Positions 2-4,425 of a stretch of 32,167 nucleotides of DNA are shown in pieces (position 1 is the stretch's first letter; each line of letters opens with the position of its first letter). The translations under genes and the position numbers were made by a program. Below the pieces are notes generated by a model. The model saw only the letters and a list, made by a program, of their open reading frames with translations, made no database searches and had not been told where the DNA came from. Source of the stretch: an uncultured Clostridia bacterium. GTDB lineage: Bacteria > Bacillota > Clostridia > Oscillospirales > Acutalibacteraceae. The stretch is taken from NCBI GenBank assembly GCA_947632385.1, contig CANRPD010000022.1:1-32167 (forward strand). Direction: 5' to 3'.

Positions 2-89
2 CCGCCGCCGCGGCCGGGCTGCGCCCGGCCCGGCCTTCCCCGCAGGGGAAGGCCGCCCGCGCCCCCCGCGGGGGCGCGGGCGGCGGCGG
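2..89. repeat. Cloverleaf palindromic repeat, copy 1
   Basis: This 88-bp GC-only-looking element folds almost perfectly. An outer 9-bp stem pairs 2-10 with 81-89. It encloses three consecutive hairpins: 12-19/23-30 (8 bp), 31-41/45-55 (11 bp) and 56-66/70-80 (11 bp). Each hairpin has a 3-nt loop, and only base 11 is left unpaired. The arm order is the reverse of copies 2 and 3, so this copy lies in the opposite orientation. The window starts at the outer stem, so further sequence to the left may belong to it. It carries no ORF and no T-tract, so it does not look like an ordinary terminator. Its function is unknown; it could be a MITE- or REP-like dispersed repeat. Confidence 0.8.
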
Positions 90-313
90 AAAGTCGGGTC
101 CTTTGCTCCGTGCGGGCGGGCCGCCCACCGGCCAAGCTCCCGGCCGAGCCCACCGGCGGCCTGCCGCCTGACCGGGGGACCAGGAGGCTCGCTCCCTGCC
201 GGAACCGGCGCCCGGTGCAGGGCCGGAACCGCCCGATTTTGCTCCCACCAAATTGCAGAAATTGTCAAAAAATGAGGGCCGGTTTTTCCCGGCATTCCGG
301 GAAAAATCGAAGA
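90..313. other. GC-rich intergenic stretch without a gene
   Basis: No convincing gene lies between the first cloverleaf and parS. The short open frames here have proline/arginine-rich composition typical of chance ORFs in GC-rich DNA, and no ribosome binding site. Several small GC hairpins occur around 108-180. A short direct repeat, CCGGAACC, occurs twice near 200-230. The AT-richer end (236-313) leads into the palindrome and parS. Confidence 0.6.
281..308. repeat. Split palindrome next to parS
   Basis: TTTTTCCCGG at 283-292 and CCGGGAAAAA at 297-306 form a perfect 10-bp dyad around a 4-nt spacer. G·T and G-C pairs at 282/307 and 281/308 can extend it. The A and T runs lie inside the arms, so it is not an intrinsic terminator on either strand. 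It ends 8 bp from parS. The half-sites TTTCCC/GGGAAA resemble those of the nucleoid-occlusion protein Noc, but known Noc sites have no central spacer, so that reading is only suggestive. Confidence 0.5.
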
Positions 314-329
314 TGTTTCACGTGAAACA
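314..329. promoter_or_regulatory. parS centromere site (ParB/Spo0J binding)
   Basis: TGTTTCACGTGAAACA is a perfect 16-bp palindrome identical to the bacterial parS consensus, and the dyad extends one base each side (313-330). ParB-family proteins load here and, with ParA, organise and segregate the origin. It sits about 9 kb from dnaA, just beyond the rsmG stop codon. In Firmicutes the noc/parA/parB genes usually follow rsmG, so they probably lie just off the left edge. Confidence 0.95.
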
Positions 330-349
330 TGCCACAAAAGATGGAAAGG

Positions 350-1081
350 TCACGCCGGTTTTCCCGCCCCCAGGGGGTGCTTGACGATGGTGCCGCCGTG
401 GCGGGGGTAGGCCTTGGGGGTGAAGGCCCGCTTCTGCACGGAGAGGAGGACCCGCTCCCCTGCGGTGGGCAGGGCGAACCGGTGCACCTGGGCCCGCTCG
501 CCCCCCAACAGGGCCAGGGCGGGGCCGGCGGCGGTGAGCTCCTCTTCGGCGCCGGGGCCCTTCATGGCCCAGAAGAAGCCCTTCATTTTGACGAGGGGCA
601 GGCAGTATTCCGCTAAAACGGGCAGGGGCGCCACGGCCCGGGCGGTGGCCACGTCGAACTGCTCCCGGAAGGCGGGGAGGCGGCCGGCCTCCTCGGCCCG
701 CTTGTGCACCGTCTCCGCGGGCAGGCCCAGGGCGGCGCAGAGCTCCGTCAAAAAAGCGAGGCGCTTATTGGAGCCGTCCAGCAGGGTCAGGCGGATGTCG
801 GGGCGGAGGATCTTCACCGGGACGCCGGGAAAGCCCGCCCCTGTGCCCACGTCGATGAGCCGGGCGCCTTCCTTCAGCGGGCAGAAGGCCAGGAGGCTGA
901 TGCTGTCCAGAAAGTGCTTTTCCGCCACCTGGGCGGGTTCGGTGATGGCGGTGAGGTTCAGCCTTTCGTTCCAGTCCAGCAGCAGCTCCAGGTAGCGCTG
1001 GAACCGGTCCAGCTGCTCGCCGGTGAGCCGCAGGCCCAGGGCCTGGGCGCTGGTTTTCAGGCCGGGACGGATGTCTTCCAT
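350..1081 (-). CDS. rsmG: 16S rRNA (guanine527-N7)-methyltransferase RsmG
   Basis: This enzyme uses S-adenosylmethionine to methylate N7 of the 530-loop guanine (G527) of 16S rRNA. The 243-aa product has the usual length for RsmG. The glycine-rich SAM-binding motif DVGTGAGFPG is at about residues 77-86, followed by LLDGSNKR near 100-107 and the TARAVAPL segment near 146. The C-terminus has the family's YPRxxGT-like ending (AYPRHGGTIVKHPLG). I chose the ATG at 1081 because AGAGGAG precedes it by a normal distance and the protein then begins like its family. The open frame continues upstream to 1315, but only through the cloverleaf repeat as low-complexity sequence. It is the last gene of the leftward block, between cloverleaf copies 1 and 2, with parS just past its stop. 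Confidence 0.95.
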   Translation of the reverse strand: MEDIRPGLKTSAQALGLRLTGEQLDRFQRYLELLLDWNERLNLTAITEPAQVAEKHFLDSISLLAFCPLKEGARLIDVGTGAGFPGVPVKILRPDIRLTLLDGSNKRLAFLTELCAALGLPAETVHKRAEEAGRLPAFREQFDVATARAVAPLPVLAEYCLPLVKMKGFFWAMKGPGAEEELTAAGPALALLGGERAQVHRFALPTAGERVLLSVQKRAFTPKAYPRHGGTIVKHPLGAGKPA

Positions 1082-1159
1082 GGGGATGCTCCTCTCTGTC
1101 AAGGGGTTGGTGCAGGGCAGGGGGCCGGGGCCGCCCCCACATGAGCGGTGGGCACCGGC

Positions 1160-1251
1160 CCCCGCCGCCGCAGGCCCGCGCCCCCCAAGGGGCGCGGGCC
1201 GTCCGCCCCTGCGGGGCGGGCGGCCGGGCGCAGCCCGGCGCGGCGGCGGGG
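1160..1251. repeat. Cloverleaf palindromic repeat, copy 2
   Basis: The outer 12-bp stem pairs 1160-1171 with 1240-1251. Inside are three arms: 1173-1184/1189-1200 (12 bp), 1201-1209/1213-1221 (9 bp with one G·T) and 1223-1229/1233-1239 (7 bp). The third arm, GCCGGGCGCAGCCCGGC, is the exact reverse complement of the first arm of copy 1. The middle arm keeps the CCCC-TGC-GGGG tip of copy 1 while its stem base differs on both sides. This is the same element in inverted orientation. It lies between the mnmG stop and the rsmG start, in the leader of rsmG. Confidence 0.8.
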
Positions 1252-1311
1252 AGGTCGGGAGACCGCTCCCTCTCGGCGGGCCGCAGACCGGGACCCGGCC
1301 GGGGGCGGCCT

Positions 1312-3183
1312 TCACGGCCGGGCGGCGGCTAAATAGATCAGCAGCACGGAGATGTCCGCCGGGCTGACCCCGGAGATGCGGCCCGCCTGGCCCACGTTCT
1401 CCGGGCGGAGGGCCTGCAGCTTCTCCCGGGCCTCCAGCCGCAGGCCGGCGATGGCGCTGTAATCCAGGTCAGCGGGGAGGCGCTTTTGCTCCAGCCGGCG
1501 CATCTCCTCCACCTGGGCCTGCTGCTTTTTGATGTACCCCTCGTACTTGAGGGCGATCTCCACGCTCTCCAGCACGGCGGCGGGCAGCGGGGGCCGGGTG
1601 GGGTCCACCGGGGCCAGGTCGGCATAGGTGATCTGGGGCCGGCGGAGCAGGTCCGCCAGGCGGACGCCGGTGGTCACCGGGGCGGTGCCTTTGGCCGTGA
1701 GGATGGCGTTGAGGGCGTCCCCCGGGGGCAGCGAGGTGCGCTGGACCCGGCGGAGCTCCGCCTCCTTTTGGGCCTGCTTGCGGCAGAACTTCTCCCACCG
1801 GGCGTCGGAGATCAGGCCCAGCTCCCGGCCCAGGGGGGTCAGGCGCTCGTCGGCGTTGTCCTGGCGCAGGAGCAGCCGGTACTCGGAGCGGGAGGTCATC
1901 ATGCGGTAGGGGTCGTTCACGCCCTTGGTGATCAAATCGTCGATGAGGGTGCCGATGTAGCTGGAGGCCCGGTCCAGGACGAACCGGGGCCGGCCCAGCA
2001 CTTTGCGGGCGGCGTTGATCCCGGCGATAAGGCCCTGGGCGGCGGCCTCCTCATAGCCGGAGCTGCCGTTGAACTGCCCCGCGCCGTACAGCCCCGGCAG
2101 GTCCTTGAACTCCAGGGCGGGAGACAGGGCGGTGGGGTCGCAGCAGTCGTACTCGATGGCGTAGGCGCTGCGCATGATCTGGGCGTGCTCCAGGCCGGGG
2201 ATGGTGTGGTAAAACGCCTGCTGGACCTCCTCCGGCAGGGAGGAGCTCATGCCCTGGAGGTACATCTCCTCGGTCTCCAGGCCGCAGGGCTCGATGAACA
2301 GCTGGTGGCGGCTGCGGTCCGGGAAGCGCACCATTTTGTCCTCGATGCTTGGGCAGTACCGGGGCCCGATGCCCTGGATCTCCCCGGCGTAGAGGGGGGA
2401 GCGGTCCAGGTTCTCCAGGATCACCCGGCGGGTCTCGTCGTTGGTCCAGGTGATGTGGCAGACCCGCTGGTTTTCCGGCGGGGTCTCGGTGTCGTAGGAA
2501 AAGGGGACCACGGGCTCGTCCCCGGGCTGGACCTCCAGGCCGGAAAAGTCGATGGAGGAACGCAGGACCCGGGCCGGGGTGCCGGTCTTGAACCGGCGCA
2601 GGGAGATGCCCAGCGCCCGCAGGGCGTCCGGCAAAAAGGCCGCCGGGAAGAGCCCGTCGGGCCCGCTGGGATAGGAGACCTCCCCCACGAAGACCTTGCC
2701 CCCCAGAAAGGTGCCGGTGCAGAGGATCACCGCCTCGGCGGCGTACACCGCCCCCAGCCGGGTGCTGACCTGCCAGCGGCCCTCCGCCGGCCGCAGGTCC
2801 ACCACCTCCGCCTGGAGGAGGGACAGGCCGGGGGTCTGCTCCAGGGTGTGCTTCATGCGCCGGGAATAGGCGGTGCGGTCGATCTGGGCCCGGAGAGAGT
2901 GGACCGCCGGGCCTTTGCCCCGGTTGAGCATCCGGCTCTGGAGGGTGCAGGCGTCCGCGGCCCGGCCCATCTCCCCACCCAGGGCGTCGATCTCCCGGAC
3001 CAGGTGGCCCTTGGCGGTGCCGCCGATGCTGGGGTTGCAGGGGCAGTTGCCCACGGCGTCCAGCTGGATGGTGAAGACGGTGGTGGGCACGCCCAGCCGG
3101 GCGGCGGCCAGGGCGGCCTCGATGCCGGCGTGGCCCGCGCCGATGACGGCCACGCCGGTCTCGCCGGCAAAATAGGTTTGCAT
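1312..3183 (-). CDS. mnmG: tRNA uridine-34 5-carboxymethylaminomethyl modification enzyme MnmG (GidA)
   Basis: This is the FAD- and NADH-dependent subunit of the MnmE-MnmG complex, which installs the (carboxymethyl)aminomethyl group at C5 of wobble uridine in tRNAs. The 623-aa product is full length for the family. An N-terminal Rossmann FAD motif, GAGHAGIEAA, lies near residues 16-25. The conserved RMLNRGKGPAVHSLRAQID block is near residue 85, and the GxGQFNGSSGYEEAAAQG-type block near 365. Its helical C-terminal domain is of the kind that contacts MnmE. The ATG at 3183 has an AGAAGGGA ribosome binding site. In many Firmicutes mnmE directly precedes mnmG. Here a NUDIX gene and a broken gene lie between them. 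Confidence 0.97.
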   Translation of the reverse strand: MQTYFAGETGVAVIGAGHAGIEAALAAARLGVPTTVFTIQLDAVGNCPCNPSIGGTAKGHLVREIDALGGEMGRAADACTLQSRMLNRGKGPAVHSLRAQIDRTAYSRRMKHTLEQTPGLSLLQAEVVDLRPAEGRWQVSTRLGAVYAAEAVILCTGTFLGGKVFVGEVSYPSGPDGLFPAAFLPDALRALGISLRRFKTGTPARVLRSSIDFSGLEVQPGDEPVVPFSYDTETPPENQRVCHITWTNDETRRVILENLDRSPLYAGEIQGIGPRYCPSIEDKMVRFPDRSRHQLFIEPCGLETEEMYLQGMSSSLPEEVQQAFYHTIPGLEHAQIMRSAYAIEYDCCDPTALSPALEFKDLPGLYGAGQFNGSSGYEEAAAQGLIAGINAARKVLGRPRFVLDRASSYIGTLIDDLITKGVNDPYRMMTSRSEYRLLLRQDNADERLTPLGRELGLISDARWEKFCRKQAQKEAELRRVQRTSLPPGDALNAILTAKGTAPVTTGVRLADLLRRPQITYADLAPVDPTRPPLPAAVLESVEIALKYEGYIKKQQAQVEEMRRLEQKRLPADLDYSAIAGLRLEAREKLQALRPENVGQAGRISGVSPADISVLLIYLAAARP

Positions 3184-3250
3184 GGAAATCCCTTCTGTTG
3201 CGATGAAAATACAAGATGTAGTGGATGATTAAGTAAAATGTTCTGGATAT

Positions 3251-3259
3251 TGTGGATGA
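3251..3259. promoter_or_regulatory. DnaA-box-like nonamer upstream of mnmG
   Basis: TGTGGATGA (reverse TCATCCACA) differs from the standard DnaA box TTATCCACA at one base. It sits alone in the AT-rich leader of mnmG. A single near-match outside the origin may be chance or a minor DnaA-titration or regulatory site. Confidence 0.3.
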
Positions 3260-3261
3260 AA

Positions 3262-3339
3262 CGCCGCGGGCGCGCGACCGGAGGGAGAGCGCCGGGCCGC
3301 CCGCAGTGCGGCGCCGGGTGAATACCCGGCAGCGCGGCG
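3262..3339. repeat. Cloverleaf palindromic repeat, copy 3 (diverged)
   Basis: The outer 7-bp stem pairs CGCCGCG (3262-3268) with CGCGGCG (3333-3339). Three arms follow: 3269-3273/3289-3293 (5 bp, long loop), 3296-3300/3308-3312 (5 bp) and 3313-3319/3324-3330 (7 bp, GCCGGGT/ACCCGGC). The orientation and arm order are those of copy 2. In the last arm the C-G closing pair of copy 2 is replaced by T-A, a compensated change that supports a selected fold. It lies between the NUDIX stop and the mnmG start. It is weaker than copies 1 and 2. Confidence 0.6.
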
Positions 3340-3354
3340 GGGGCTGGGAGGGGC

Positions 3355-3903
3355 TCAGTCTGGGGAAAGGCGCAGCAGCGCGCCGACCCGGCGGAGGACC
3401 GGCAGCTCCCGGCTGCAGATCAGGCGGCCCAGCGGGGTGCAGGCCCGGCGCTGGTATTCCGCCAGGGCTTCAGGGTAGGTCAGGCGCAGGGTGGACAGGT
3501 GGAAGTCCTGCTGCTCCTCCGGCGTTTGGTGGGTGGGGCCCCAGGAGAGGGCCCGGCAGAGGAAGTAGTGGTTGTGGTTGCGGCGGTGGATAAGGTGGTA
3601 GGCATCGTGGACCTGGGCAATCTCTCCCAGGACCTGGGTGCGGACGCCCAGCTCCTCCGAGAGCTCCCGATGGATGGCGGTCTCTAGGTCCTCCCCGGGC
3701 TCCACGCCGCCGCCGGCGGTCTCGATAAGGGTGGCCCGGCCGAAATCGTCGTCCCGGTCCACCCGGACAAAGTAGAAGAAGCCTGCGTCGTCGTAGACGA
3801 TGGCCCGGGCGATCTGGCGGTCGTGGTCCAGGTAGGTGAAGGGCCACTGGGTGTCCGTGAGGGTGAGGGTGAGCGGAGGAAGATTTGAGATTTGAGGGTT
3901 CAT
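3355..3903 (-). CDS. NUDIX hydrolase
   Basis: NUDIX enzymes cleave nucleoside diphosphates linked to another moiety, using divalent metal held by the NUDIX box. The box is perfect here: G65, five residues, E71, seven residues, then RELSEELGV at 79-87. The product is 182 aa, starting from the ATG at 3903, which has a textbook AGGAGG site. A longer frame reaches 4011 but would run into the neighbouring pseudogene. The substrate cannot be read from the sequence; the fold around residues 18-65 (QWPFTYLDHDRQIARAIVY) suggests a stand-alone hydrolase of the MutT/ADP-ribose type. It lies between mnmE and mnmG, on the same strand. Several Oscillospiraceae carry small NUDIX genes, but I do not recognise this one as part of the mnm pathway. 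Confidence 0.88.
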   Translation of the reverse strand: MNPQISNLPPLTLTLTDTQWPFTYLDHDRQIARAIVYDDAGFFYFVRVDRDDDFGRATLIETAGGGVEPGEDLETAIHRELSEELGVRTQVLGEIAQVHDAYHLIHRRNHNHYFLCRALSWGPTHQTPEEQQDFHLSTLRLTYPEALAEYQRRACTPLGRLICSRELPVLRRVGALLRLSPD

Positions 3904-3970
3904 AGAGGGCCTCCTGAATGCGGCTGTTGGGAAATGGAACGCTCTCCTGTTGCTGGCAACAATCAGCCTG

Positions 3971-4380
3971 CTACCGTTCGTACCGCGTGCCATGGGAAAG
4001 CAGGACCGCATCGGTCAATGCCAGGCGCAGGAGAACGGTATGTGGGTCCGAACAATCGGTATGCCCGTCGTCGATCCAGCTGGCAAAGGCCTGCTTCAGT
4101 TTTTCGGCCAGGGGACGGTTCGGTTCCGCACCAAACCAGCCCAAGCTTTCTCCTTGCGCGTGTGCGGTGAACCAATCCCCCGCGATGGCCACCGTGGGGT
4201 TGGCTTGCATGTGCCGCATCTTATTGGAGAGCGCATGGGTGATGACATAAAAGGAACCGTTCTCCTAATAGGCGTTGACCGAGCGCACATAGGGAACTCC
4301 GTGCTCTACCGTCGCCAAAGAGAGGACCGTATCTTTGCCAAAGCGCTCCTGCATGATGCGTTCAGCCTGTTCGTTCCATG
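3971..4380 (-). pseudogene. Broken pyridoxamine 5'-phosphate oxidase-family (general-stress flavin-binding) gene
   Basis: Read on the minus strand, two adjoining stretches together give a recognisable small PNPOx-like split-barrel protein. From 4354 the reading runs MQERFGKDTVLSLATVEHG and on to SVNAY. It then meets an in-frame TAG at 4267-4265 and continues ENGSFYVITHALSNKM. The second part contains TVAIAGDWFTAHAQGESLGW and ends VLLSHGTRYER at 3971. Family members have an unbroken sequence with a Tyr or similar residue where the TAG stands. The start also looks damaged: a GAGGAGGAG ribosome site (4392-4400) is followed by an ATG at 4380 that is one base out of frame with the conserved NEQAERIMQERFG. 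The C-terminus is a few residues shorter than I would expect. A sequencing error is possible at either lesion. It lies just after mnmE. Confidence 0.75.
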
Positions 4381-4425
4381 GCAGGGTCTTGCTCCTCCTC
4401 AAATGAAATCAACCGAAAGGAAAAA

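Follow-up and report, generated by a model that had tools for sequence, protein, structure and literature searches.

The window, a stretch of 32,167 nucleotides, is contig C22 of a 1.96 Mb draft genome of an uncultured Clostridia bacterium that comprises 76 contigs and is 97.8% complete. Near its left end, rsmG (positions 350-1081; TIGR00138, NCBIfam) and mnmG (positions 1312-3183; TIGR00136, NCBIfam) are both encoded on the reverse strand, and the nearest relatives of the MnmG protein carry names such as uncultured Clostridia, Acutalibacter and Neglectibacter. Copy 1 of a three-arm cloverleaf occupies positions 2-89 on the reverse strand, at the left edge of the contig, copy 2 lies at positions 1160-1251 on the forward strand in the gap between mnmG and rsmG, and a doubtful copy 3, possibly a decayed cloverleaf, is found at positions 3262-3339 (forward strand). 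The region between mnmE and mnmG (window 3184-4425) contains a Nudix-like gene and other sequence, and this joint varies among relatives, in contrast to that between mnmG and rsmG.

Between copy 1 and rsmG, a pattern search revealed the site TGTTTCACGTGAAACA (positions 314-329), which we take to be parS from the Bacillus consensus. The genome contains eight such sites, six exact and two with one mismatch, and parS is present in 21 of the 24 genomes searched, this one included. The site in the window is preceded by a hairpin box (positions 269-313, forward strand) with counterparts at five more of the genome's parS sites; judged by eye, a box of about 45 bp thus stands on one side of six of the eight sites (window 269-329 and loci L143, L140, L197, L137 and L139), lying on the opposite strand and having diverged in L139 (contig C42). 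At L141:2890-4010 on contig C13, imperfect direct repeats, each a few hundred bp long, form an array that ends beside a parS site with one mismatch.

Copies 1 and 2 are confirmed as real three-arm cloverleafs. Copy 1, with an outer stem of 9 bp and arms of 8, 11 and 11 bp, was recovered by folding, by blastn, by a descriptor that requires three hairpins in a row inside an outer stem and by the covariance model R1 (see below), and copy 2, with an outer stem of 12 bp and arms of 11, 10 and 7 bp, by folding, descriptor parse and R1; both copies had gone into the building of R1. On the forward strand, outer stem and three arms fold with energies of -88.5 kcal/mol (copy 1) and -95.7 kcal/mol (copy 2), equivalent to z-scores of -6.9 and -7.6 against dinucleotide shuffles. 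The corresponding z-scores for the reverse strand are -5.9 and -5.2, and none of 200 shuffles folded as well for either copy on either strand. When the window was scanned with the descriptor, exactly these two elements were returned, and ten shuffles yielded nothing. An earlier note on this DNA had described copy 1 as inverted relative to copy 2 and as sharing an arm with it, and had remarked on a fold almost devoid of unpaired bases in copy 1 and on the absence of T-tract terminators. These points are borne out: the two copies are 84% identical in inverted orientation (blastn, positions 6-91 of 92), inspection of the sequences shows the arm GCCGGGC-TGC/GCA-GCCCGGC in both, their folds leave hardly a base unpaired and no T-tract is seen by eye beside the copies in the window.

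The same note had attributed one architecture to all three spots, which is correct for copies 1 and 2 (parsed, with the z-scores given above) but doubtful for copy 3. Its fold has z-scores of only -2.1 (forward) and -2.0 (reverse), equalled by 5 and 8 of 200 shuffles, and its outer stem and arms, all of 7 bp, are parsed only when loops of up to 11 nt are allowed, with a score of 27.4 in a range where shuffled hits of at least 26 occur once per 338 kb. R1 did not match it in the window search. Neither did the second covariance model, R2, a result of little weight because R2 also misses copy 2 (nothing at E 1) and finds copy 1 only at E 0.47.

Elements of this kind are abundant in the genome. 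Searching with copy 2 by blastn retrieved four full copies, the window's own two and a pair on contig C49 that flanks a parS site between noc-like and soj-like genes; the remaining matches are partial, from E 8e-5 down. R1 was built from these four copies with an automatic alignment structure that misplaced the arms, and scored other places in the genome at E 0.01 to 8. The sequences of these leads are quite different, yet most of them parse as three-arm cloverleafs, and three were used to build R2 with an explicit three-arm structure. R2 produced 87 matches in the genome, both strands counted, and 54 distinct places at E ≤1e-3, 50 of which are also parsed by the descriptor; many places are matched on both strands. 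The descriptor returned 78 parses from 338 kb of stretches, mostly taken around matches, versus one in shuffled sequence. With four parses dropped, the union, which includes copy 3, amounts to about 79 places, i.e., 74 descriptor parses and five places recognized by covariance model or pattern only. The covariance-model search that the earlier note had proposed did turn up further copies, so that the refuting outcome named there did not occur, and its view of three copies of one family holds in part: copies 1 and 2 and the two on contig C49 are firmly linked by sequence, but copy 3 is not. The window copies are tied to most of the others by shape and weak scores, from which we infer common descent.

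Two parses, one in coding DNA and one in an AT-rich core, were set aside before stem lengths, G-U pairs and occupied gaps were counted. Most elements measure about 80-115 bp, and their outer stem has about 9 bp (range 5-17); a length of 14 bp is not exceeded by 227 of the 228 arms or by 75 of the 76 outer stems. G-U pairs make up only 67 of 5557 pairs in the 76 elements, counted on both strands, a figure biased toward perfect pairing, as are all counts based on the descriptor, because it requires paired arms. Locus L157 (positions 1165-1580) contains a tandem run of three cloverleaf-like units in which the first arm is nearly identical.

A young subfamily is defined by the exact outer stem CCGTCTCGC...GCGAGACGG, which occurs at 39 places in the genome when the interior is left unconstrained (reversed control: 0). 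Three arms were present in all 38 of the places fetched and in none of 28 viral-contig stretches that match the outer stem of this family or of a second one described below (4 + 24 stretches). In 35 aligned young copies, the outer stem (nine pairs) and the central arm (seven pairs) are invariant, while five of seven scored pairs of arm C are altered on both sides. Changes on both sides affect 49 cells compared with 16.4 in shuffled alignments, 96.4% of the cells are paired compared with 92.2%, and covariation reaches 0.122 compared with 0.052 (0 of 500 shuffles in each case; slid alignments gave at most 0.059). There is no excess in the number of pairs changed on both sides (6 versus 5.1 shuffled) or of further pair types (12 versus 11.3) in these copies. 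Under the fixed alignment, 87.8% of the arm-C cells are paired. When 33 distinct arm-C sequences were refolded on their own, 382 Watson-Crick pairs, four G-T pairs and three internal unpaired positions were obtained, not counting mismatches at the arm base; two of the 38 copies that do not have the expected central arm were excluded, and one of the 33 sequences is arm A of a misoriented copy. The arms also reassort: all four combinations of the two common arm-A and the two common arm-C types are present. Each arm, almost perfect internally, thus acts as a module that can be exchanged, and dozens of near-identical copies with one varying but mostly paired arm constitute a natural experiment on selection versus copying mechanism.

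The young copies are embedded in larger mosaic repeats that include an AT-rich core with 28 matches, and part of their spread may therefore have occurred as parts of larger blocks. The core (L203:2740-2870 and 27 other places in the genome) consists of the palindrome TTTGTTCAAATATGAACAAA and the hairpin GTTTCCCT..AGGGAAAC and is often flanked by two cloverleafs. Short modules that end in GTCGCG and carry small variable hairpins (TACTGGAAA..CCAGTGGG) recur many times within the same gaps, at L197:2270-3300, L203:2300-3000 and L209:1620-1880, and form another mosaic repeat.

The position of the elements relative to genes was assessed with gene calls from a hexamer model trained on seed genes, one of which (noc) was out of frame; noc-soj gaps in relatives, for which the noc query was likewise out of frame, were left out of consideration. 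Gene calls were available around 75 parses: tandem gaps account for 32 of them, convergent gaps for 30 and divergent gaps for seven, and five are at stretch edges. Only one, a weak parse, overlaps a called gene, in agreement with the description of the elements as gene-free in the earlier note. If each gap of at least 90 bp is counted once, elements are present in 28 of 69 gaps between tandem genes, in 21 of 27 between convergent genes and in 7 of 29 between divergent genes. The divergent class is occupied too rarely (Fisher p 0.011), in stretches that were mostly chosen for holding elements. Within tandem gaps, 23 elements are nearer to the 3' end of the upstream gene and nine nearer to the next start. 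Young copies are often paired, and 12 of 56 gaps contain two elements. Old copies in tandem gaps are oriented opposite to the genes in seven cases and in the same direction in two (eight unclear), and young copies in the same direction in eight and opposite in five (two unclear). The mnmG-rsmG gap that harbors copy 2 measures 230 nt. In 22 of 23 relatives, the two genes are separated by -17 to 101 nt, and by less than 20 nt in 21 of these; the 23rd relative was miscalled in this comparison. None of the 23 loci contains a cloverleaf parse.

Searches of related genomes showed a patchy distribution. In 23 relatives (15 congeners and eight further members of the order, up to 150 candidates each), R2 detected nothing at E 0.1 except for two weak hits in one congener (E 0.04 and 0.05), one at a locus with a poor cloverleaf parse (score 27.1, outer stem 5) and the other at an unparsed locus, so that one copy in this congener is possible. 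In another congener, a 36-nt segment of copy 2 was matched by blastn (E 6.7e-5) at a place without a parse. At E 1e-4, R2 matched the genome of the window alone among 398 genomes of the family, for each of which at most ten candidates were scored under strict filters; as this search recovered only nine of the genome's own places, the absence weighs less than that in the 23 relatives. The descriptor found no element in 303 kb of congener DNA (20 stretches, three of which consist of N only) or in 311 kb from the family's other genera (20 stretches).

When 80 MnmG loci were scanned with the descriptor, L115 stood out as a strong case; a further parse, in L079, was weak and AT-rich (score 27.0) and was taken as chance. 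L115, which R2 did not match at E 0.1, belongs to an uncultured Clostridia genome (Lapin-015 bin65, here G432) with a cloverleaf family of its own and of different sequence: the outer stem is GGGCGAAGCCC/GGGCTTCGCCC, and the arms, e.g., GGCGGCAGC/GCTGCCGCC, vary in order. The first 30 loci contained 32 distinct three-arm, three two-arm and no four-arm parses, and shuffles none; pooled loci yielded 64 distinct parses, with stems of at most 14 bp in all 192 arms and all 64 outer stems. Of 30 elements, 16 lie in tandem, six in convergent and one in divergent gaps and seven at an edge, and the values for 33 elements in shorter loci are 12, three, eight and ten, respectively. Among 60 genomes searched around and including G432, the sole other match was a single copy in genome G454, a perfect three-arm cloverleaf that shares the outer stem and the CTTG central loop with G432 and has different arms.

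The earlier note had considered mobilisation by a tyrosine transposase, for which the genome offers no support: the Y1 transposase family PF01797 has no match in this 97.8% complete draft assembly, the control being positive in five of 14 genomes. G432 has one PF01797 place (L354, contig C14), broken by internal stops, presumably a decayed element of the IS200/IS605 type, and we rejected it as the mover as no cloverleaf was parsed in its locus. Inspection of the first 40 residues per gene did not lead to the recognition of a mover next to the G432 clusters. For the young copies, whose flanks were all turned the same way, target-site duplications were counted in 11 of 39 cases versus 11.5 in shuffled sequence (443 of 500 shuffles reach this value); the counts were five of 35 for old copies at a length of at least 3 nt versus 2.3 (18 of 300) and three of 64 for G432 elements versus 3.4. 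An apparent excess (16 versus 6.4; young copies 11 versus 5.8) was due to mixed flank orientation and vanished upon orienting the flanks (11 versus 11.5). Viral carriage was also dismissed: of the 39 viral contigs that contain an exact 16-base pattern, none has the outer-stem pair, gapped outer-stem patterns match 4 and 24 viral contigs with no cloverleaf among them, and a weak parse in viral locus L300 (score 21.8) was taken as chance. The longer G432 pattern matched no viral contig, and no match was obtained in the plasmids and phages searched.

Direct observations are the existence of this set of elements, the way they fold, their intergenic spread, their abundance relative to the relatives searched, the change of arms with pairing largely kept and the mixing of arm modules. 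We see about an even chance that copies 1 and 2 are non-autonomous, REP/MITE-like dispersed DNA elements in which the conserved feature is a shape, a four-way junction. A REP/MITE-like palindrome had already been suggested in the earlier note, and copy number, dispersal, gene-free sites on the 3' side of genes, patchiness and the mnmG-rsmG joint that is closed in relatives all speak for it. Such elements would spread by insertion into gene-free spacers, mostly on the 3' side, possibly helped in trans by a putative enzyme that recognizes the DNA as a folded single strand or a cruciform, and old-type copies such as 1 and 2 would share descent with the young subfamily. DNA-level palindrome correction, i.e., template switching at replication, may keep the arms perfect, and gene conversion between copies may mix them; together, these two processes are our proposed reason for the double-sided changes, the few G-T intermediates and the reassorted arms. 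Template switching has been described to create and maintain perfect hairpins, in a report concerned with RNA stems (PMC8794818). The division of a long palindrome among four stems, of which nearly all measure at most 14 bp, may in addition allow escape from hairpin nucleases such as SbcCD. The minimum stem for SbcCD cleavage is given as 8 to 16 bp and REP heterodimers may be protected (PMC3733652); evasion by cloverleafs is extrapolated from REP, and many of the stems described here fall within 8-16 bp.

Other explanations have to be weighed against a mobile DNA element. The cloverleafs could be neutral by-products, hairpins made by template switching and multiplied by block duplication and ectopic gene conversion without any transposition. 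The embedding of young copies in larger mosaic repeats, the reassorting arms, the lack of target-site duplications and the reported ability of template switching to make and keep perfect hairpins (PMC8794818) fit this scenario, and it gains some weight relative to the mobile-element reading from the failure of R2 to match copy 2 and from the negative test for duplications. We still regard it as rather improbable: an arm number of three recurs (32 versus three two-arm and no four-arm parses in the first G432 loci) and the window's genome has the same shape with different sequence, a copy sits between mnmG and rsmG, which lie close together in relatives, and the window contig has no match to the AT-rich core seen in the young blocks. 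Selection on RNA, with the elements serving as 3'-UTR stabilisers of transcripts, bidirectional terminators or processing sites, would agree with the 3'-side bias in tandem gaps (23 versus 9), with the rarity in divergent gaps (p 0.011), with pairing retained through sequence change and with the one-sided orientation of the readable old tandem copies (seven opposite, two same). It is unlikely in view of the scarcity of G-U pairs (67 of 5557, in descriptor-chosen elements), the about equal folding of both strands with R2 matching both at many places, the mixed orientation of young tandem copies (eight same, five opposite, two unclear), the lack of T-tracts by eye, of Rfam matches in the loci scanned and of parses in the congener DNA sampled.

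A role in chromosome architecture, in which the cloverleafs would be sites tied to parS/ParB or a nucleoid protein, had also been raised in the earlier note. In its favor, a cloverleaf lies 41-225 bp from four of the eight parS sites, and the four copies closest in sequence are those at noc-soj and rsmG-mnmG. On the other hand, the other four parS sites are without a parse in the fetched stretches (about 4 kb on either side), the remaining cloverleaf places lie elsewhere, the compared loci of the 23 relatives are unparsed although relatives have parS, and parS and cloverleafs both prefer intergenic gaps. Such a role is possible but weak, and we consider it very improbable.

Returning to the mobile DNA element, a more general idea is offered tentatively: the cloverleafs might represent a class of selfish or domesticated DNA that is defined by a fixed three-arm shape with hypervariable, exchangeable arms under palindrome correction, that arose separately, or diverged past recognition, in different Clostridia and that is moved by a cloverleaf-recognizing enzyme. 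Mobility of the elements would point to an enzyme yet to be identified. Cloverleafs may also break assemblies, as the window contig starts at a copy.

The earlier note knew of no named family that would match, and a scan against Rfam 15 at gathering score (13 + 10 sources) indeed returned only 5S rRNA, tRNA and tmRNA, with no match at the cloverleaf loci scanned. Dispersed palindromic repeats are well known, whereas a constant three-arm junction with replaceable arms is, in the open-licence papers searched, undescribed. REP sequences are palindromic, of high copy number and extragenic, are located mainly downstream of or between convergent or unidirectional genes, occur in close pairs and are species-specific in certain families (PMC3733652). 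The cloverleafs resemble these REP/REPIN/BIME systems (RAYT, TnpA_REP) in being palindromic, abundant, extragenic, located on the 3' side and partly arranged in close pairs, and in the window's genome they share the REP-like location. They differ in consisting of an outer stem and three arms, mostly 80-115 bp, instead of single palindromes of 20-40 bp, in arms that diverge strongly between copies and in the lack of a Y1 match in the genome. They also have no unpaired GTAG/CGTC end tag, the CGTC of the young outer stem being paired, and therefore fall outside the GTAG/CGTC superfamily of REPs (20-40 bp, unpaired tag). Within 10 nt outside the ends, GTAG/CTAC was counted at 3 and CGTC/GACG at 6 flanks of 76 elements of this genome and at 3 and 2 flanks of 64 G432 elements. 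Runs of T are missing by eye from the printed flanks of most parsed elements, with TTTT or more at two elements in L157 and one in L209. REP dimers with two stem-loops in the spacer are mentioned in PMC3733652, and among the systems compared these come nearest to the cloverleaf architecture.

Resemblances extend to other repeats. MITEs are likewise short, non-coding and dispersed, and the outer stem of the cloverleafs may be counted as terminal inverted repeats, but target duplications were not detected here and no transposase is known as their partner. The GC clusters of yeast mitochondria, GC-rich, palindromic and mobile-like, undergo merging and shuffling, and most of their changes fall in loops (PMC4478555); they differ in being mitochondrial, in size (42 bp for GC42), in their short flanking direct repeats and in not being three-arm bacterial units. 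Modular organization is shared with the BOX elements of Streptococcus pneumoniae, which are small, interspersed, strongly folded and commoner between convergent genes (PMC3049150). BOX modules (boxA, B and C), however, are defined by sequence and accompanied by terminal inverted repeats and target duplications, whereas cloverleafs combine replaceable arms with a constant number of them.
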